The notes under the pieces are model-generated. The model was not told the DNA's origin, did not search any database, and saw only the letters and a list, made by a program, of their open reading frames with translations. A DNA stretch of 64,000 nt, from assembly GCF_005377625.1 (NCBI RefSeq), contig NZ_CP040098.1, positions 496,001 to 560,000 on the forward strand, read 5' to 3'. Origin of the DNA: Desulfoglaeba alkanexedens ALDC (GTDB lineage Bacteria; Desulfobacterota; Syntrophobacteria; Syntrophobacterales; DSM-9756). The first letter of the stretch is position 1. The number at the start of each line of letters is the position of its first letter. Below are positions 5,254 to 51,715 of the stretch, one piece after another. The translations under genes were made by a program, and so were the position numbers.

Positions 5254-5326
5254 GGGCCTTTCCGAGGTCGTGGCATCCCTCTGAAACCAGCTCGAGTGCT
5301 CCGCCGTGACGGGTTCACTTCTCATT

Positions 5327-5467
5327 GGGTGCGGATCTTTTAGAACGGCATCCAGGGTGGACCCTCTGAGGTAGATCCAGATGGCCTTGAAGCAGCAAGC
5401 GCATCAGCTCCGTTTCCCCTCGTTCCCAAGCTGGAGCTTGGGAACAAGAAGCAAAAGATCTGCACCC
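5327..5467. mobile_element. Miniature inverted-repeat element, family 1, short form
   Basis: About 141 bp beginning GGGTGCGGATCTTTTAGAAC and ending AAAAGATCTGCACCC, so the 15-bp ends are near-perfect inverted repeats. The inside holds the palindrome TTCCCAAGCTGGAGCTTGGGAA. No coding capacity. Nearly identical to 45125-45264, and its two halves match the ends of the 317-bp copies at 24225 and 34867. No target duplication is visible around this copy. Confidence 0.8.
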
Positions 5468-5691
5468 ATGTCAGAAGGAAAGGCTACAGCGTCAAGGGAC
5501 TCAAGCGTTTGTTTCCCGTGAACACAGAGATCAACCTTGCGAAAGACAAACCCAAAGGCTGTGTACAGCAAATTAGCCTAATTAGATGAGTGGTAACTGC
5601 GAAATGCAAATCTTATTAAAAAGCTTTCTTTTAGGTCTTACAGAACTAACATTATTTTTATACTATATTTGCTCGAAAGGCGATAAAAGCT
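5468..5691. other. Intergenic remnant with a copy of a 53-bp dispersed repeat
   Basis: An open stretch on + (VKGLKRLFPVNTEINLAKDK, then KPKGCVQQIS) looks like the end of a lost gene or transposase. 5558-5610 (core GTACAGCAAATTAGCCTAAT) recurs at 42676-42727 and 45857-45909. AT-rich sequence follows and likely contains the thioesterase promoter. Confidence 0.5.
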
Positions 5692-24218: not shown

Positions 24219-24224
24219 TGAATT

Positions 24225-24543
24225 GGGTGCAGATCTTTTGCTTCTTGTTCCCAAGCTCCAGCTTGGGAACACAACTGTGCAGAAGCTCCAGCTTCGGTGA
24301 CGCCGTTCCCAAGCCAAAGCTTGGGAACGAGGGGAAACACCACTTCGAGATCCTGGCGAGCTCCCTAGAAAGACAGCGCGTTTCAGCTGTAGCAGGAGGG
24401 AAGCTGGAGCTTCCCGGGCAGGGCGTTCCCAAGCTGGAGCTTGGGAACGAGAGGAAACGGAGCTGATGCGCTTGCTGCTGCAGGGCCATGTGCATCTACC
24501 TCAGAGGGATACCCTGGATGTCGTTCTAAAAGATCCGCACCCC
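24225..24543. mobile_element. Miniature inverted-repeat element, family 1, long form, copy A
   Basis: 319 bp from GGGTGCAGATCTTTTGC to GTTCTAAAAGATCCGCACCC. The ends are inverted repeats. Inside are several CCAAGCT..AGCTTGGGAAC palindromes and GGAAGCTGGAGCTTCC. Flanks AATGAATT and AATGAACT give an 8-bp duplication with one mismatch. The element fills nearly all the space between the solute-receptor stop and the deacetylase start, whose ATG lies in the right-hand duplicated 8 bp. Confidence 0.85.
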
Positions 24544-24544
24544 A

Positions 24545-25348
24545 ATGAACTCAAAACCGCGCGTTTCCATTCTCATGTACCATCAGGTTGGTTTTTTTCG
24601 TCGCCCGGCCGCCCACCGAGCGACTTTTTGCCATGTGCGGCGTTTTCGCCGCCAAATGGCGTGGCTCAAACGATCCGGCTATCATGTGATCCGTCTCACC
24701 GAGGCGGTAAGAGGACTCAAGGGGGAGATACCCCTGCCGAATCACAGCGTGGTACTAACCTTTGACGATGGATACCGCAACTTCTACGAAAATGCTTATC
24801 CCATGCTGCACGAGTACGGCTTTCCGGCAACCGTTTTTATGGTTGCTGGACATCTTGGATCCACGGCCCGATGGATTGAGGAGGAGGGTAGGTTCGGTGC
24901 CCCTCTAATGGAAAAGGACCACCTCTTGGAGATCCAGGCTGGCGGCATCGAGATCGGGTCCCATACCGTCACTCATCCAAGATTGAGCAAGATACCCTTA
25001 TCCAAAGCCCAGAGAGAAATAGCAGAGAGTAAGTCAATCCTAGAATCACTTTTGGGCGACAGAGTCATTCATTTCTGCTACCCATACGGGGATTTCAATC
25101 CGCAGATTGCCGATTTGGTTCAGGAGGCTGGCTACGAAAGTGCACTGACATGTATTCGTGGGGCGGCAACCGCGGAAGACAGCTTGTTTTGTCTTCCGAG
25201 AAAAGCCGTTTCCTACGGGGACAGCCTTATCGGCTACCTATGGAAACTTCATATAAAGAACAAGAAAAAGGCCCCGACCAGTGGTCCGAAGGCTCCATTC
25301 ACATCATCGGCAGCCGACAGTACGGCGGAGCGGACCGATTCTACGTGA
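24545..25348 (+). CDS. Polysaccharide deacetylase (CE4/NodB-type)
   Basis: 267-residue deacetylase; removes acetyl groups from N-acetylated sugars of surface glycans or precursors. Catalytic aspartate and metal ligand in TFDDGY (72-77), metal histidines in SHTVTH (139-144), and CYPYGDFNP near 178. No signal peptide, so it may act on a lipid-linked precursor at the inner membrane. ATG 24545 is 2 bp beyond the miniature element and has no Shine-Dalgarno of its own, so expression may depend on sequence within the element. The C-terminal end overlaps the next gene by about 109 bp. Confidence 0.9.
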   Translation: MNSKPRVSILMYHQVGFFRRPAAHRATFCHVRRFRRQMAWLKRSGYHVIRLTEAVRGLKGEIPLPNHSVVLTFDDGYRNFYENAYPMLHEYGFPATVFMVAGHLGSTARWIEEEGRFGAPLMEKDHLLEIQAGGIEIGSHTVTHPRLSKIPLSKAQREIAESKSILESLLGDRVIHFCYPYGDFNPQIADLVQEAGYESALTCIRGAATAEDSLFCLPRKAVSYGDSLIGYLWKLHIKNKKKAPTSGPKAPFTSSAADSTAERTDST

Positions 25349-34724: not shown

Positions 34725-34866
34725 CCTCAACTTTCCTTTCGATCGGCCGCAGATTAAAATGGCGGATCTGCTGATTCGAATCCCTCAACTCGCCTCGGCC
34801 ATACCCGATGAGGTAGATTCCAACCGAATTGTGTGGCCATAGGGGGTTAGAAACCTGAACTGAGAC

Positions 34867-35182
34867 GGGTGCGGATCTTTTAGAACCACATCCAGGGTGA
34901 CCCTCTGAGGTAAATCCAGACGGCCTTGAAGCAGCAAGCGCATCAGCTCCGTTTCCCTCGTTCCCAAGCTGGAGCTTGGGAACGCCCTGCCCGGGAAGCT
35001 CCAGCTTCCCTCCTGCTACAGCTGAAACGCGCTGTCTTTCTAGGGAGCTCGCCACGATCTCGAAGTGGTCTTACCCCTCGTTTCCCGGCTCTGGCTTGGG
35101 AACGGCCTCACCGAAGCTGGAGCTTCTGCACAGTTGCGTCCCCAAGCTGGACCTTGGGAATAAGAAGCAAAAGATCTGCACC
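34867..35182. mobile_element. Miniature inverted-repeat element, family 1, long form, copy B
   Basis: About 316 bp from GGGTGCGGATCTTTTAG to AAAAGATCTGCACC, opposite in orientation to copy A at 24225 and matching it along the length, including the CTAGGGAGCTCGCC segment. No target duplication seen. Copies A and B bracket the complete glycan operon (24545-34724). 34725-34866 and 35183-35291 hold no gene. Confidence 0.85.
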
Positions 35183-35291
35183 AGCAATTTCCGGAGCCCC
35201 TGTAAAGCCTTGAAAACCGGGCATTGAAGGATTTGGTTTTCGCGAACCCAGGGGGTGATTTCGGGCTCCGAAGGGGGTTTCGGAGGTGAAT

Positions 35292-36927
35292 TTTTTCGAC
35301 TATTTTGCTGTTTCATGCTGGACAGCCGCCCGCGTCTCTGGTAGGCTATTTTGCCATGAAGCCCAGCAAAGACGCTCCTTCCTCCAAGATCCGACTTCGC
35401 AAGCATCTGAATGCAGATGCCATGGTGAGGGCGGTGCGCCGTGAGTTCGAAAAGATCCCCGATCCCCGCAAAGGCACGCCGCAGATCTCCTTTGCGGATG
35501 CGGCCATGAGCGCCTTCGCCATGTTTTCTTTGAAGGATCCCTCTCTTCCGGCCTTTGAGAAACGCTGGTCGGCTCGGGATCACAACCTGCACGCGCTCTA
35601 CCACATCGAGAAGGTCGCTTCCGACAGCACCATGCGGGAGATTCTCGATGAGGTTTCGCCCTATGTGTTCCGACCCGCCTTCGGCGAGATCTTCTCACGG
35701 CTTCAGCGCGGCAAGGCGCTGGATCAGATGACCGTGCTGGACGGCCGCTACATCCTGGCCCTGGACGGCACGGGCTATTTTTCGTCGGAAAAGGTCTTTT
35801 CCGACGCCTGCCTTCGAAAAACCTCTGCCACCGGCAAGACCACCTATTCCCTCCAAATGATGGGAGCCGCCCTCGTCCACCCGGACCACAAGGCCGTGAT
35901 CCCCTTTCCCCCCGAAGTGATCCGAAGAGAAGACGGTGACACCAAAAACGACTGCGAACGCAACGCCGCCGGCCGTTGTATCGAGAACCTGAGAACTGAC
36001 CACCCCCACATCAAGCTCATCGTGACCGAAGATGCCCTCAGTCCCAACGCTCCCCACATTGAAACCCTCAAGCGCTTCGACTGCCGCTTCGTGCTTGGGG
36101 TTAAACCCGGCGATCACGCCTTCCTCTTCGAAAAGGCCGACGAGGCCATCGCCGAGGGCAGGGCTGTGGAGTTCTGGCACGCAGCGGAAGACAACCCCGA
36201 AACCCTCCATTACTTCCGCTTCATCAACGATCTTCCCCTCAACAAGTCCCATCCCGACCTACGAGTGAACCTCCTCGAGTACTGGCAGGTGACTCCCAAG
36301 GGGCTGCTGCGGTTTTCCTGGGTCACCGATATCCTCATCCGCCGGGAAAACGCCGTTACCTTGATGCGGATCGGCCGGGCACGCTGGCGCATCGAAAACG
36401 AAACCTTCAACACTTTGAAAAACCAGGGCTACCACCTCGAACACAACTACGGCCTGGGCCGAAAACACCTTAGCGCCGTCCTCGTCACCCTCATGATGTT
36501 GGCCTTCTGCGTGGACCAGAGCCTCCAACTGTGTTGCCCGCTGTTTCAGGCCGTATGGCGAAAGCTCCAAACCAAACGGGACCTCTGGGAGAGGATCCGG
36601 GCCATGTTCTGGGACTTCCGCCTGGAGTCCATCCGGATGCTCTACGAGGCCCTTCTTTACGGATACAAAAGGCTGACCCCGATCATCGCCTATAACACCT
36701 CGTAGGGCGGAGAAAGGAATTACCGCATGCAGAACCTGAGTTTCACCCGAAAAACCGACGCGGAGGTGCGCCTTCAAACCGGGCATCTGAGCCCCTCACG
36801 CTCCGGGTGGCATCCCTCAACGGGACGTTCGGACCCTCGATCACCCCAAACGGCCCGCTGAACACTCGAAGACTCTCCTTTCACGCCCGCTTTTCACCCA
36901 AGGACCATGCGCTCCGGGAATTGCTGA
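35292..36927 (+). mobile_element. Insertion sequence, IS4-superfamily DDE type
   Basis: Limits are set by shared sequence with the deleted copy at 42201-42659: both contain the transposase start region and the block from about 36710 to TTGCTGA. One intact transposase gene inside. I could not define terminal inverted repeats or a target duplication. Its right end cuts into the frame at 36929-37186. Confidence 0.75.
35356..36705 (+). CDS. DDE transposase, IS4-superfamily
   Basis: 449-residue transposase. Candidate catalytic residues: D in YILALDGTGYF (near 138), D in KLIVTEDALSPNA (near 222), E in RWRIENETFNTLKNQGYHLE (near 345). The C-terminal HLSAVLVTLMMLAF helix is typical of this group. 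ATG 35356 (MKPSKDAPSSKIRLRKHLNA) is preferred because the deleted copy retains the same start; the frame is open to 35305. Frame is unbroken, so the copy may be active. Confidence 0.85.
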   Translation: MKPSKDAPSSKIRLRKHLNADAMVRAVRREFEKIPDPRKGTPQISFADAAMSAFAMFSLKDPSLPAFEKRWSARDHNLHALYHIEKVASDSTMREILDEVSPYVFRPAFGEIFSRLQRGKALDQMTVLDGRYILALDGTGYFSSEKVFSDACLRKTSATGKTTYSLQMMGAALVHPDHKAVIPFPPEVIRREDGDTKNDCERNAAGRCIENLRTDHPHIKLIVTEDALSPNAPHIETLKRFDCRFVLGVKPGDHAFLFEKADEAIAEGRAVEFWHAAEDNPETLHYFRFINDLPLNKSHPDLRVNLLEYWQVTPKGLLRFSWVTDILIRRENAVTLMRIGRARWRIENETFNTLKNQGYHLEHNYGLGRKHLSAVLVTLMMLAFCVDQSLQLCCPLFQAVWRKLQTKRDLWERIRAMFWDFRLESIRMLYEALLYGYKRLTPIIAYNTS

Positions 36928-36928
36928 C

Positions 36929-37186
36929 AGAAGTGTAGTTAGTCAAGCAAAGCTAGTTCTTAATGTAAACAACAAATCTCAAGCATCATCTGCCCATTCT
37001 ACATTGCTTAACGCATCAGAGGCATTAAGCATAAAAATCGCTGGCGCGAAGTTACCTCAATCTGTCAAAGACGCAATTTCTGGCGGCAAATCAATGGAAA
37101 CAAAAATCGGGCAAACGGCTGTTGAAGTGAAACGAGACAACTGGCCTACCGGCAAAGGTTACGAAATTCATGTGATTTTCAAATGA
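36929..37186 (+). pseudogene. C-terminal fragment of an unknown protein, cut by the insertion sequence
   Basis: The frame VVSQAKLVLNVNNKSQASSA continues through LPQSVKDAISGGKSMETKIG and ends NWPTGKGYEIHVIFK. Its upstream part runs into the IS end, so the N-terminus is gone. Base use is visibly AT-richer than the core genes. No family recognised. A TTG at 37004 is the only in-frame start. Confidence 0.45.
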
Positions 37187-37516
37187 GATCAGTGGCTAAC
37201 ACTGCGGTGCCGTTTCCGCAGAGATTCGGTATAGCCAAGAAGTTTCCGCTCGAGTTCTCCCTTGGCCCGTTTCATAAACTCCACCTGCTTATACAGAATC
37301 TCCATAACGTCAATACACTAATGTTATAGTCATTGGCAACCTGCCGGTCGTCAAGGGTCTTTTCCTTGGATTTCTTTGACAAGGAACAGCGGGAAGCGCT
37401 AACCTTAGATTTAAGTACACCGACTGAGTAGCAACCGTAACGGAAAAACGGAGATTGGATAGAATAACGAGTTAGCCAGCCTTTAGAATCGCGTGGCAAC
37501 AGATTCTACCTGACCA
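37187..37516. other. Intergenic leader of the HEPN-like gene
   Basis: No supported gene. CTGCGG/CCGCAG near 37205-37225 forms a small hairpin just after the sequence GGCTAAC, which could be a worn attC end. A 38-codon minus-strand frame (37189-37305, MEILYKQVEFMKRAKGELER) is charged and helical but unsupported. Confidence 0.35.
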
Positions 37517-38821
37517 ATGGATACTATAACATTTATAAGCGAACTAAAAGAAACTCTATTGAGCATCGAGTCTACTGGGGGTAATCCCTCGTTGCACGTG
37601 ATACCAAATCACGCGCTTTTGGGAGAACTCAAACGTTTTGTCTTTGAGACCGCAACCCAAAAAGGTATTCGGTTCAGTGGCAGGGATGATCCGCACGGCC
37701 ACGATTGGCGATATTCCTCATTCGTAGGGGACGTTCTTGATAGAGAACGTTTTGAAAGGCGGGTACGTTACTGCATCATCAAACTGAGAGAGTTTGGCAT
37801 TCCAGAAACAGACTATTTTGCGTACGTTTCAAAGGCTTTAGACATTACGCTTGCCCAACTTGAGAAAAATCCTCGTGAGAGAACTCCACGGCATCAGCCA
37901 AGCAGGGCTTCTATACAGAACTTGGTCGTTGAAGAAATCGCCAAATGTTTTGAGACGTGGTACTATCCTTCCGATGTCTCTTACTATGAATTTGCCACAG
38001 AACATCAATTGGCGACCTACGACATCACGAGTCGAAGATGGCGACTATCTGGCATTGGGCAGTATGTGTTGCAGCTATCGGCCTTTGAGTTGATCGTCTT
38101 TCTGTGCGCTTTGGAAGTTACCTTTGCGCGCAAGAGCACGAGTAGTCGTTATCTTAACAAACAGACCCTCGACACATTGAGCAAAGCACAGCCTATAGAT
38201 GATCTGCGGTTCAATCGCCGCGAGCGACTCCCGATGTCGCTTCGCTGGTATGGAATCGTTGATACAACAACTGAAGAACCGCTTATCACAGATTTTGGCA
38301 GAAGGATACTGGTAAAAACATCTGCGAATCTTGACGTTCTGAGAGACGTTATTATGCTGTTAACTGAATCAGAAGTCGGCGGATTCGAATTTCTGGGTGG
38401 CACAGATTTAATCGAGCAAGTTAAGGAACGCACAAGAACATCCCGAAGCCTCATTCAAGATCAAAGAGTATCGGTTGAGATAGCAGTAAACCTCTTTATG
38501 ACAGGGCATTATCTTGATAGTTTACGCATCTTCTACTCAAACATAGAAGCAGTCCTGAATCTCGCCTTGATGAAGATAGGATTGCGTCCAGAAGATTTCG
38601 GAGGTATGAAACCCAAACTTGAGAAATTGGAGAAAGAAAAAGTACTCTCCTCGAAATTGAGCAGTTGGCTGGAAGTAGTAACCAGCCGTAATAAAGTTCT
38701 TCACGGCAACATCGTGGAAGATGACGCAGCGTTAGTGAAACCCCTTTTCTTTTTCATTGGAGCGTTCTGGAATCGCTTGGTTGAAGAAGTAGATTTTTAC
38801 TTTGAGAAAACGGCTGGCTAA
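37517..38821 (+). CDS. Unrecognised 434-residue protein with HEPN-like C-terminal domain
   Basis: I do not recognise the full protein. The C-terminal about 110 residues are helical: IFYSNIEAVLNLALMKIGLR, then a lysine-rich helix, then SRNKVLHGN with R391-x4-H396, the R-x4-6-H signature of HEPN ribonucleases and substrate-binding HEPN domains. Residues about 170-270 (YEFATEHQLATYDITSRRWR; PLITDFGRRIL) look like a winged-helix or DNA-binding module. Soluble, no signal or membrane segment. Its TAA lies inside an attC-like site (38816-38885), as in integron cassettes, and a toxin-antitoxin pair follows. HEPN proteins in such settings are often defence or toxin RNases; that role is inferred. Confidence 0.75.
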   Translation: MDTITFISELKETLLSIESTGGNPSLHVIPNHALLGELKRFVFETATQKGIRFSGRDDPHGHDWRYSSFVGDVLDRERFERRVRYCIIKLREFGIPETDYFAYVSKALDITLAQLEKNPRERTPRHQPSRASIQNLVVEEIAKCFETWYYPSDVSYYEFATEHQLATYDITSRRWRLSGIGQYVLQLSAFELIVFLCALEVTFARKSTSSRYLNKQTLDTLSKAQPIDDLRFNRRERLPMSLRWYGIVDTTTEEPLITDFGRRILVKTSANLDVLRDVIMLLTESEVGGFEFLGGTDLIEQVKERTRTSRSLIQDQRVSVEIAVNLFMTGHYLDSLRIFYSNIEAVLNLALMKIGLRPEDFGGMKPKLEKLEKEKVLSSKLSSWLEVVTSRNKVLHGNIVEDDAALVKPLFFFIGAFWNRLVEEVDFYFEKTAG

Positions 38822-38885
38822 CAACGGGTTGCAGGCGACGTTGCTCCGCTACGCTCCACAACGCGCCTGAACCCGACCGTTAGAT
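38816..38885 (+). repeat. attC-like recombination site 1
   Basis: Imperfect palindrome of 70 bp. Left arm TAACAACGGGTTGCAGGCG faces right arm CGCCTGAACCCGACCGTTA, followed by GTTAGAT, which fits the integron core GTTRRRY. The upstream gene ends with the TAA of the left core. The central spacer TTGCTCCGCTACGCTCCACAA is itself near-palindromic, as in many attC sites. Confidence 0.6.
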
Positions 38886-38917: not shown

Positions 38918-39139
38918 ATGAAGAAGAAATTAACTGCAACTGATACTCTTGGTTTATCAATCCCAGAGAGAATCCAATTGGCAGAAGACATTTGGGATAC
39001 GGTAGCCGCAGAAGCTGAGTCGGTCGAATTAACTGAAGGAGAGAAGAAGATAATTGATGAAAGATTGGAGGCATATCACCAGAATCCTGATTTGGGTTCT
39101 CCTTGGGAAGATGTTTATAAGAGAACAGTAAGCAAATGA
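38918..39139 (+). CDS. Addiction-module antitoxin (TIGR02574-type)
   Basis: 73-residue acidic antitoxin. LGLSIPERIQLAEDIWDTVA near residue 11 and LTEGEKKIIDERLEAYHQNP near 38 are the family's two blocks; the C-terminus SPWEDV is also typical. It should bind and neutralise the adjacent ParE/RelE-type toxin and repress the operon. Start ATG 38918 has AGGGAGGATTTGAG before it. Overlaps the toxin start by 4 bp (ATGA at 39136). Low-GC relative to neighbours outside the island. Confidence 0.85.
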   Translation: MKKKLTATDTLGLSIPERIQLAEDIWDTVAAEAESVELTEGEKKIIDERLEAYHQNPDLGSPWEDVYKRTVSK

Positions 39140-39441
39140 ACTATAGAGTTATTGTCAGACCGGAAGCTGAAAATGACTTAAAGGAAGCTTTCTCCTGGTA
39201 TGAAGATAAAAGGCAGGGGTTAGGATATGATTTTCTTTTACAGATTGAGGCGGGGCTGAAATTCATAGAAAGAAACCCGGAGATTTGTCCGCCTGAGCAT
39301 AAAGGAACGAGAAAGCATCTCATCAAAAGGTTTCCTTAGAAAATACTCTATCTGATTGAAAAAGAGAAAATAATTGTTCTCGCCGTAATTCATGGCAAGA
39401 GAAGTTCAAATTTAATAAGAAAGAGAATAGACAGCATTTAA
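39136..39441 (+). pseudogene. RelE/ParE-family toxin with internal amber codon
   Basis: Reads NYRVIVRPEAENDLKEAFSW through HKGTRKHLIKRFP, then TAG at 39337-39339, then in the same frame KILYLIEKEKIIVLAVIHGK to TAA at 39439-39441. The two parts together make a normal 101-residue ParE toxin. The TAG replaces what is normally a tyrosine codon (RFPY-K), a single C-to-G change, so the toxin's last beta strands are lost unless the stop is suppressed. The final TAA lies in the attC-like site 2. Confidence 0.75.
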
Positions 39442-39498
39442 CAAATCGTTGCAGCGGACGGCGGGCAAACCCGCCGCCGCTGAACTCTATCGTTCTCG
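39437..39498 (+). repeat. attC-like site 2, partly degenerate
   Basis: TTTAACAAATCGTTGCAGCGG opposes CCGCTGAACTCTATCGTT, with a GC-rich stem GGCGGG/CCCGCC between. The left core contains the toxin-frame TAA as at site 1. The right core reads GTTCTCG rather than GTTRRRY, so the site is worn or truncated. Confidence 0.45.
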
Positions 39499-41499: not shown

Positions 41500-41940
41500 A
41501 TGAGAGTTTATCTTGATTGTTGTAGCCTTCAGCGTCCGTTTGATGATAGATCCCAACCAAGGATAGCCGTTGAAGCTGAAGCAGTCCTTGTCATCCTTGC
41601 ATTGTGTGAGTCACATCACATGCGACTCGTATCCTCAGAGTCTCTAGTCTTCGAGATCGGCCGCGTCCCGGACCAGACACGCAGGGAGGACGCTTTGGCA
41701 ATTCTCAAATTGGCCAATGAAAATGTTGCGTTGACAACAGAAGTTGAAGCACTGGCCAGGAAACTGATGGCATCAGGTTTGAAACCATTGGATGCTTTGC
41801 ATCTGGCATCTGCGTCAACTGCAAAAGCTGATTACTTTTGCACTTGTGACGATAAGTTTCTAAGAAAAGCCAAAACCTTAAATGGATTGGATACCAAGGT
41901 GGTATCGCCCACCGAACTGGTGATGGAGCTAGACATATGA
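41500..41940 (+). CDS. PIN-domain protein, VapC-like toxin
   Basis: 146-residue PIN-fold nuclease. Acidic metal ligands: D6 in RVYLDCCSLQRPF, E near 47 in SSESLVFEIGR, D in LKPLDALHLASA near 98, and D near 115 in CTCDDKFLRKA. Such proteins cleave tRNA or mRNA when freed from an antitoxin. The stop overlaps the next start (ATGA). AGGAAAG precedes ATG 41500. The toxin-first order differs from classic vapBC. Confidence 0.8.
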   Translation: MRVYLDCCSLQRPFDDRSQPRIAVEAEAVLVILALCESHHMRLVSSESLVFEIGRVPDQTRREDALAILKLANENVALTTEVEALARKLMASGLKPLDALHLASASTAKADYFCTCDDKFLRKAKTLNGLDTKVVSPTELVMELDI

Positions 41941-42146
41941 ACATGCAAGTCAGACCCGTATCTGAAATTAGCCGTCGAGCCACTCACATCCTCTTTAAAG
42001 AGATGGGTATTGTTGACACCATTCGTTTTTTCAATCAGTTCTCGATAGGCCAAGGAAACTACACAAAGGAGCGAGAGAAGTGGCTGGGTGACATATCTTT
42101 AGACGAGGCCATCTCTCAAATTAAGTCCCACAGAGAAAATGCCTAA
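41937..42146 (+). CDS. Small partner of the PIN-domain protein, likely antitoxin
   Basis: 69-residue protein coupled to the PIN gene by a 4-bp overlap. RATHILFKEMGIVDTIRFFN and QGNYTKEREKWLGDISLDEA are blocks I recall in small proteins next to PIN toxins. Charged, helical, no DNA-binding motif identified. An antitoxin role is inferred from position. The stop is followed by C (CCTAAC), reminiscent of an attC left core, but the right part is replaced by the deleted IS copy. Confidence 0.65.
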   Translation: MNMQVRPVSEISRRATHILFKEMGIVDTIRFFNQFSIGQGNYTKEREKWLGDISLDEAISQIKSHRENA

Positions 42147-44848: not shown

Positions 44849-45124
44849 TTTAACTTTTCCTCCTTTCCTTTCTATGTTATTTTCCTGGTGTTTCTTTAAA
44901 GCTCTCCACTTACCCGACAGAGCCACGGCTGATACTTAGCTTTATCTATCCCGTGAATTTCTTGTCGCTGAGCTCCTTACTCATATTAACGGTACTTATC
45001 AGCTTCTCCATCAGTTGGAATCTTATTTTTATTACCAACTATTTCCCTAAAAGTAATTGACTTGCATCACTCAATAAGTATGCTAAACATTCAATGTTAC
45101 AGCTTTATGATGATTATGTGAAAA
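44849..45124. other. Intergenic, AT-rich
   Basis: Upstream region of the phosphoesterase gene. TTGACTTGCATCACTCAATA around 45058 is AT-rich, but no promoter can be assigned on the minus strand with confidence. No gene. Confidence 0.35.
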
Positions 45125-45264
45125 GGGTGCGGATCTTTTAGAACGACATCCAGGGTGGCCCTCTGAGGTAGATCCAGATGGCCTTGAAGAAGCAAGCGCA
45201 TCAGCTCCGTTTCGCCTCGTTCCCAAGCTGAAGCTTGGGAACAAGAAGCAAAAGATCTGCACCC
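45125..45264. mobile_element. Miniature inverted-repeat element, family 1, short form, copy 2
   Basis: 140 bp from GGGTGCGGATCTTTTAGAAC to AAAAGATCTGCACCC; same arrangement as 5327-5467. Its right end abuts the transposase remnant at 45265, interrupting that gene after HEKYLLA. No clear target duplication. Confidence 0.82.
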
Positions 45265-45790
45265 GAGCCAGAAGGTACTTCTCATGGACCGGTGAAAGGC
45301 GGCCGTTGAGAGTTCTCTCGTATCGAATCTTTATGATGCGAATATGCTCGAACTTTGTTGTCATCATGAAGGTGGTTGGCCGTTGGGTGGGTTTGTTGTC
45401 CCGGTCGGGGATCGTCGTCTGATGTTTTTCCAGATGAGCGCGCATGTTGAATTCTACGAGGCGCCAGAGCAGGAGGACGATCACCAGGATGAGTCCGAGG
45501 GCTTCGATGCGTTCCGGTTTTTTAAAGAAGACGGAGTTGACGACTACGGGATCTTTGAGGAAACTGAAGTTGTGTTCGATACCGTTCTGATCCTTGTAAG
45601 GCTGTAGGATCCTTTTACCGTCGTGAGGGATGTCGCTATCGGGCGGCCCCTCGACCGGGACATCGGTGATCAGGACAAAACATCCCGCCTGTTCGCGTAG
45701 GGTGTCGACGGCCTCAGGCTTTTACGTATAGGAAGGTGGTAAACGTCATAGAATTCGATTTCCATGGGATCGATCATCCTGTCTCCTTTG
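45265..45790 (-). pseudogene. IS1634-family transposase remnant truncated by the family 1 element
   Basis: Minus strand reads AVDTLREQAGCFVLITDVPV, then PYKDQNGIEHNFSFLKDPVV (catalytic E region), then IEALGLILVIVLLLWRLVEF, then RPTTFMMTTKFEHIRIIKIR and ends HEKYLLA at the element border. A short N-terminal-like piece MEIEFYDVYHLPI occurs at about 45720-45765 in another frame, so the middle of the gene is deleted. The last residues are replaced by miniature-element DNA. Confidence 0.75.
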
Positions 45791-50770: not shown

Positions 50771-50805
50771 TCATGAAAGTCGAGCACTGAGGTTCCTTGT
50801 TCCTG
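50771..50805. repeat. Dispersed repeat piece next to the array
   Basis: TCATGAAAGTCGAGCACTGAGG, then TTCCTTGTTCCTG: reverse complement matches 2801-2835 and 16643-16670. In all three places it touches or lies near REP-type sequence. Confidence 0.6.
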
Positions 50806-51615
50806 TAGGAGCGGGCTTGCCCGCGACCCGTAAAACCGGCCTTGCCTCGTTGACCCTGATCGCCGGCAAGCCGGCTCCTACAGGGGATCGGCCCGGTATT
50901 CCGTCAAGGGGATCGGCCCGGTGTTGCGTTATCGGTAGGAGCGGGCTTGCCCGCGACCCGTAAAACCGGCCTTGCCTCGTTGACCCTGATCGCCGGCAAG
51001 CCGGCTCCTACAGGGGATCGGCCCGGTATTCCGTCAAGGGGATCGGCCCGGTGTTGCGTTATCGGTAGGAGCGGGCTTGCCCGCGACCCGTAAAACCGGC
51101 CTTGCCTCGTTGACCCTGATCGCCGGCAAGCCGGCTCCTACAGGGGATCGGCCCGGTATTCCGTCAAGGGGATCGGCCCGGTGTTGCGTTATCGGTAGGA
51201 GCGGGCTTGCCCGCGACCCGTAAAACCGGCCTTGCCTCGTTGACCCTGATCGCCGGCAAGCCGGCTCCTACAGGGGATCGGCCCGGTGTTGCGTTATCGG
51301 TAGGAGCGGGCTTGCCCGCGACCCGTAAAACCGGCCTTGCCTCGTTGACCCTGATCGCCGGCAAGCCGGCTCCTACAGGGGATCGGCCCGGTGTTGCGTT
51401 ATCGGTAGGAGCGGGCTTGCCCGCGACCCGTAAAACCGGCCTTGCCTCGTTGACCCTGATCGCCGGCAAGCCGGCTCCTACAGGGGATCGGCCCGGTATT
51501 CCGTCAAGGGGATCGGCCCGGTGTTGCGTTATCGGTAGGAGCGGGCTTGCCCGCGACCCGTAAAACCGGCCTTGCCTCGTTGACCCTGATCGCCGGCAAG
51601 CCGGCTCCTACAGGG
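50806..51615. repeat. Seven-copy tandem array of inverted REP pairs (BIME-like)
   Basis: Units start at 50806, 50936, 51066, 51196, 51301, 51406 and 51536, with lengths 130,130,130,105,105,130 and a terminal part. Each unit pairs TAGGAGCGGGCTTGCCCGCG with CGCCGGCAAGCCGGCTCCTA in opposite orientation, so each can form a cruciform. The 105-bp units lack one 25-bp segment (TATTCCGTCAAGGGGATCGG region). Copies are essentially identical, indicating very recent amplification. It lies between convergent genes (Lpp-like on +, mlaD on -). No tyrosine-transposase (RAYT) gene is in the window. Confidence 0.92.
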
Positions 51616-51715
51616 CATGAGTCACTCCCTAAGCGCCGTTCCCGAACCGCCCCTGCACCAAAAAAAACGGACACTACATTCCTGGAAGGGGTAAAGGGTG
51701 TTCTCAGACAGCTTC

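Follow-up and report, generated by a model that had tools for sequence, protein, structure and literature searches.

Most integron gene cassettes encode proteins of unknown function. What such a cassette might do for its host is the question raised by an open reading frame of Desulfoglaeba alkanexedens ALDC, which we analysed within a 64,000-nucleotide stretch of the genome (NZ_CP040098.1, positions 496,001 to 560,000), referred to here as the window; coordinates are those of the window unless stated otherwise. The initial annotation had placed here a 434-residue protein of no recognised family, lying in a cassette and ending in a putative HEPN domain, and had considered an RNase toxin or phage-defence role plausible. 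A notable share of the integron cassettes tested so far protect against phages (PMC12409362).

The gene is a plus-strand frame of 434 codons at 37517–38821, which begins with ATG, contains no internal stop and has exactly the extent first described. Its position in a cassette also proved to be strictly true, in the sense of an integron cassette with attC anatomy. The unit extends from the left GTTAGCC to the next GTTAGAT (37471–38878, right end at about 38879; 1,408 bp, plus strand), has a G+C content of 0.457, that is 46% as against 59% for the window, and ends in an attC site at 38816–38885 (plus strand) that was located by a box scan and is supported by folding. The scan required R'', L'' with one extrahelical base, L' and R', which are represented here by GGCTAAC, GGGTTgCAGGC (with an extrahelical G), GCCTGAACCC and GTTAGAT, respectively. 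For the bottom strand of the site, the predicted folding energy is -21.3 kcal/mol (z -5.3), and unpaired bases break its L stem, as in attC sites. This was the only site found in the window, looser settings adding one more at 39436–39498, and shuffled 64-kb sequences gave about 0–1 matches each. DNA identity with a second copy of the cassette, found in a distant genome (locus L002, described below), is confined to 37507–38841 (7990–9325 in L002), with nothing in common outside the cassette, and both copies start with GTTAGCCAGCC (GTTAGCC). The stretch 37471–38878 is a bona fide mobile integron gene cassette. No clear promoter was seen for its gene, and Rfam gave no match over threshold.

On the left side of the cassette, which no attC precedes, lies a unit of about 270 bp (37208–37474, plus strand), delimited by repeat copies elsewhere in the genome: a 93% copy at genome positions 805500–805766 and a partial one at 1596948–1597135, which matches its right-hand part at 70%. 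All three end at the junction GTT and each is followed by different DNA and genes. The simplest reading of these repeats is that the unit may be an attI-like site, with the gene captured in first position. The minus strand of the window unit carries the beginning of a truncated ORF; the start of this divergent ORF (MEILYKQVEFMKRAKGELERK...), of no known family, is present in two copies of the unit. Because the truncated ORF inside the unit matches no family, the attI assignment is kept tentative. An ORF beside the attI-like unit (L025) has some likeness by eye to an integrase N-terminus, which we do not claim, Pfam and PHROGs giving nothing for it. No integron integrase remains at the window locus, and the cassette gene is probably the first of its array, beside the attI-like site of an integron remnant that has lost its integrase. 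An insertion sequence with an IS4-like transposase (35182–36932) adjoins this remnant and also breaks, as a 97% copy, an integron at 1.81 Mb of the same genome. The latter (about 1.814–1.823 Mb; L024) is a chromosomal integron remnant in which we counted six attC-like sites. The C-terminus of an intI-like integrase survives there in two IS-linked copies (RHTDVRTTMIYTH...), and the remnant further encodes PIN-domain proteins and, in a cassette ORF, a 656-aa product that matches HEPN_SAV_6107 very weakly (E 0.94).

A second cassette follows on the plus strand. It encodes an antitoxin-type addiction module component (38918–39139; TIGR02574/PF09720, 68.4 bits, cut-off 31.9) and a ParE-like toxin frame (39136–39339), and it has its own attC at 39436–39498 (bottom-strand folding z -5.6). 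Of the adjacent toxin-antitoxin genes reported initially, the antitoxin thus stands, and the toxin frame runs for 67 codons before an in-frame TAG breaks it, and falls just under the cut-off of Pfam ParE_toxin. The cassette of interest encodes no antitoxin-like partner of its own, and between 36930 and 39500 no ORF of the MNT type, the HepT antitoxin, was seen, the neighbours being IS transposases and the TIGR02574/ParE pair. Further along the window, a PIN-domain gene overlapped by a small ORF (41500–42146) is flanked by an IS3 element and by a truncated IS4-like copy, in DNA whose low G+C resembles that of cassettes and in which no attC was found. The window also contains a long array of imperfect direct repeats (50805–51618; copies shifted by about 100–130 bp, 87–99% identical) and dispersed repeats of 120–320 bp on both strands that are 90–95% identical (5322–5478, 24221–24548, 34861–35189 and 45119–45275).

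The sole full-length relative that we found is encoded at L002, on contig JACQWQ010000261.1 of a Chloroflexi groundwater metagenome-assembled genome (MAG), and is 95% identical. Plasmids, phages and viral contigs held no relatives of the protein, and 60 relatives and 395 genomes drawn from its own phylum returned only the gene itself. The window genome and the relative fall in phylum-wide genome samples that do not overlap (G000–G433 and G434–G833), whereas samples from one group do overlap, and therefore a cassette of 95% identity crosses a phylum boundary. The two genes differ at 61 of 1,302 bases, distributed over the three codon positions as 13, 8 and 40, with a dN/dS of about 0.15–0.24; these differences support coding and show purifying selection. 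Five of the 20 amino-acid differences lie in the last 144 residues and none in the heptapeptide RNKVLHG. The cassette gene is thus real, mobile and under selection.

At the relative's locus, an integron integrase is encoded upstream of the cassette (TIGR02249, 462.6 bits, cut-off 265), attC sites flank the cassette on both sides, and more of them follow downstream on L003, a contig end of the same MAG that overlaps the relative's locus by 141 identical bp. Judging from this overlap, the cassette would adjoin the L003 genes across the contig ends. Encoded on L003 are a restriction endonuclease of the TdeIII type (268.6 bits), a DNA methylase and a HicB-like protein, which makes the relative's array rich in defence and toxin-antitoxin genes. 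The methylase (N6/N4) and TdeIII form a Type II restriction-modification pair located between two attC sites (L003, 910–3127). A truncated relative is found in a third genome, also of the Chloroflexi (G552; L014, 1507–1929, minus strand), where a fragment of 140 aa corresponds to the N-terminal domain alone, with 51% identity over residues 2–156 followed by a stop. This fragment adjoins a PIN-like gene and has a palindromic repeat just upstream. Weak profile matches in other Chloroflexi genomes (L015, L029–L041) were, in those examined, unrelated proteins or random frames.

The protein can be divided into three parts: an N-terminal domain (residues 1 to about 150), tentatively delimited from the extent of the truncated relative, a middle region (about 150–300) and a predicted C-terminal HEPN-fold domain (about 309–432). 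As stated at the outset, it matches no family, here in Pfam, NCBIfam, PADLOC, PHROGs and PDB sequences at E values up to 10, and pieces of the protein and its relatives gave only sub-threshold noise against Pfam, PADLOC and PDB sequences. A winged helix had been suggested initially for the middle region; no HTH family matched, and an AlphaFold2 model of the full-length protein, middle region included, reached a pLDDT of only 34, too low to read a fold from. The SRNKVLHGN sequence noted previously is present, with R391 and H396, and its core RNKVLHG (codons 391–397; 38687–38707, plus strand) would be the putative RNase active-site motif R-x4-H under the published HEPN rule (PMC3710099). A bare R-x4-H is uninformative, as 49% of shuffles of this very protein contain one, whereas the fuller form R-N-x3-H-G occurs in 0.09% of them. 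The DNA pattern for RNK[VIM]LHGN was present at 13 loci in viral contigs, none of which had a recognisable HEPN ORF (frames of 19–153 residues), and the motif by itself is therefore weak evidence.

Does the fold agree with the motif? The proposed structure prediction and fold search returned, with moderate confidence, a helical bundle of HEPN type. Residues 305–434 (38429–38818, plus strand) were modelled with AlphaFold2 from two near-identical input sequences, giving a bundle with a pLDDT of 65.2 and a pTM of 0.56 and with helices at residues 309–328, 332–353, 358–373, 379–395 and 404–432. In a Foldseek search against the PDB, the HEPN protein 2hsb ranked first (probability 1.00, TM 0.68/0.70, with an E value of only 0.05), and HEPN chains took 23 of the best 26 ranks, the remaining three being designed bundles. 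This count includes entries not titled as HEPN, such as 1ylm, 3c18 and 5yep, which we assign to HEPN from PMC3710099 or general background. The integron protein 3jrt was absent among the fold matches listed, and viral models searched with Foldseek gave nothing convincing. VIA-align placed HepT, Csm6 (5fsh, Z 9.0), AbiV and the sacsin HEPN domain at Z 7–9; this score alone is not decisive, because designed and vinculin-type bundles align equally at Z 7–9. For helical bundles, a Z under 13 may reflect a common arrangement.

HEPN domains are defined as four-helix bundles with an Rx4-6H motif at the end of helix 3 or the start of the following loop and a polar residue after the arginine, often with helix 2 separated from helix 3 by an insert (PMC3710099). 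In the model, R391 lies near the end of helix 3 (379–395), N392 is the polar residue and H396 is the first residue of the loop, where the pLDDT drops below 50; the order of the helices and the additional helix that separates the second from the third likewise fit the definition. E344 in helix 2 is a possible additional acidic residue, outside the E-x3-[KR] form since position 348 is N. Pfam and PADLOC HEPN models did not match the protein. In hhalign, the C-terminal domain scored 25.1 against a home-made HEPN set, with 12.3 ± 2.1 (maximum 17.7) for shuffles and 10.9–25.0 for HEPN sets against one another, which is no better than the domain itself. With RNKVLHG masked, the score in the same register dropped to the background level of 13.4, and one of 138 other ORFs, an unrelated one, scored higher (29.9). 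HEPN_Apea and RiboL-PSP HEPN sets were tried as kin and rejected, the similarity being limited to the motif. The sequence-profile support for HEPN is thus motif-driven, and sequence alone gives no proof; the predicted model supports a C-terminal domain of HEPN fold with the motif in the HEPN position.

Because this fold has an intact R-x4-H and the relative's array contains restriction-modification and toxin-antitoxin cassettes, we infer by analogy that the protein may be an RNase toxin or phage-defence protein; its RNase activity, its trigger and its part in phage defence are all read from that analogy. The protein is probably RNA-cutting and phage-defence-like, and of a type listed in no database. 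The explanation that we lean towards for the locus as a whole is that the cassette cargo is a three-part, defence-like protein with an autoinhibited C-terminal HEPN RNase. In the proposed mechanism, the new N-terminal domain and the middle region would sense or bind something, and the C-terminal domain would cut RNA as a dimer, independently of metal, with R391 and H396 contributed by both subunits, as in HEPN RNases. The N-terminal part would keep the nuclease inactive in resting cells until infection or stress freed it, so that translation stops. A sensing part that restrains a HEPN nuclease has been proposed for AbiJ and for CARF-HEPN proteins (PMC3710099).

A different possibility, which we think unlikely while taking it seriously, is that the HEPN fold is real and non-catalytic, so that the protein would be a DNA- or RNA-binding regulator rather than a toxin, its middle region binding DNA and its C-terminal bundle dimerising or binding a nucleotide. 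HEPN families that have lost catalysis do exist (PMC3710099), the cassette has no antitoxin, and two G-x3-L-type stretches of the middle region (RWRLSGIGQYVL and LITDFGRRIL) have the look, by eye, of winged-helix endings. Catalysis-less families usually lose the R or the H, however, whereas R391, N392 and H396 are all kept here and the 95% relative carries the motif unchanged; nor did any HTH family match the protein at E values up to 10.

We give less credence to an unrelated helical domain in which R-x4-H occurs by chance. The frequency of the bare motif in shuffles, the motif-driven profile match and the Z values of designed and vinculin-type bundles would all be expected under this reading, against which stand the dominance of HEPN chains among the best 26 Foldseek ranks, where only designed proteins intervene, the exact placement of the motif at the end of helix 3 of the predicted fold and the rarity of RNx3HG in shuffles. 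Least probable of all is the reading of a cassette in decay, without function, within what remains of an integron. The broken ParE-like frame next door, the missing integrase, the IS elements around the site, the truncation of L014 and the lack of a clear Shine-Dalgarno sequence just 5' of the ATG might suggest it; against it, the frame is fully open and under purifying selection relative to L002.

The cassette is a concrete case from environmental bacteria of two phyla, at 95% identity on either side of the boundary between them, and combines a structural hint at a HEPN RNase effector with a sensor-like part for which no known match was found. Going by the model, we regard it as a probable HEPN effector with a novel putative sensor part. 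If the defence role is true, it would extend defence cassettes well past Vibrio and clinical integrons. A bolder and more tentative proposal is that it might represent a new integron-borne anti-phage family, in which a novel N-terminal sensor controls a HEPN RNase and which moved between phyla in a cassette of one gene; the N-terminal domain, which occurs by itself in the third genome, would then be a reusable module for sensing phage or stress.

How does the cassette protein compare with known systems? A close precedent is the gammaproteobacterial integron-cassette HEPN family of PDB 3jrt, a proposed dormancy-inducing RNase (Anantharaman et al. 2013, PMC3710099). Both are HEPN-fold proteins with an Rx4H-type motif on an integron cassette; here, in contrast, about 300 residues of new sequence precede the HEPN domain, and the search of PDB sequences detected no chain with credible similarity to the protein. 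The nearest predicted folds in our model are those of the HepT toxins and AF0298 (2hsb), but HepT is a stand-alone protein encoded beside an MNT antitoxin gene, whereas the present domain follows a long N-terminal part in one polypeptide, and its gene has no visible MNT neighbour. In its order of domains, a variable sensor-like N-terminal part followed by a C-terminal HEPN, the protein resembles AbiJ-type proteins, in which AbiJ-NTD1-5 take the N-terminal position, although residues 1–156 and L014 had no credible match in Pfam or PADLOC (AbiJ models included, if present in these libraries); a strongly diverged AbiJ-type domain might escape such searches. Csm6/Csx1 (CARF-HEPN) proteins likewise have a C-terminal HEPN behind a sensor-like part, and Csm6 is among the fold matches; unlike these, the present protein has no CARF domain detectable by sequence, and its gene stands alone on an integron cassette. 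Finally, anti-phage integron cassettes have been described by Darracq 2025, Kieffer 2025 and Getz 2025 (reviewed in PMC12409362); at least 16 of 179 Vibrio cholerae cassettes (~10%) and 9 of 57 tested Vibrio parahaemolyticus cassettes were active (PMC12409362). The cassette described here is similar to these in carrying a gene of unknown family and in the restriction-modification and toxin-antitoxin genes of its relative's array; those cassettes, which were assayed, originate in Vibrio and in mobile integrons, whereas this one is known from the sequences of environmental bacteria belonging to two other groups.
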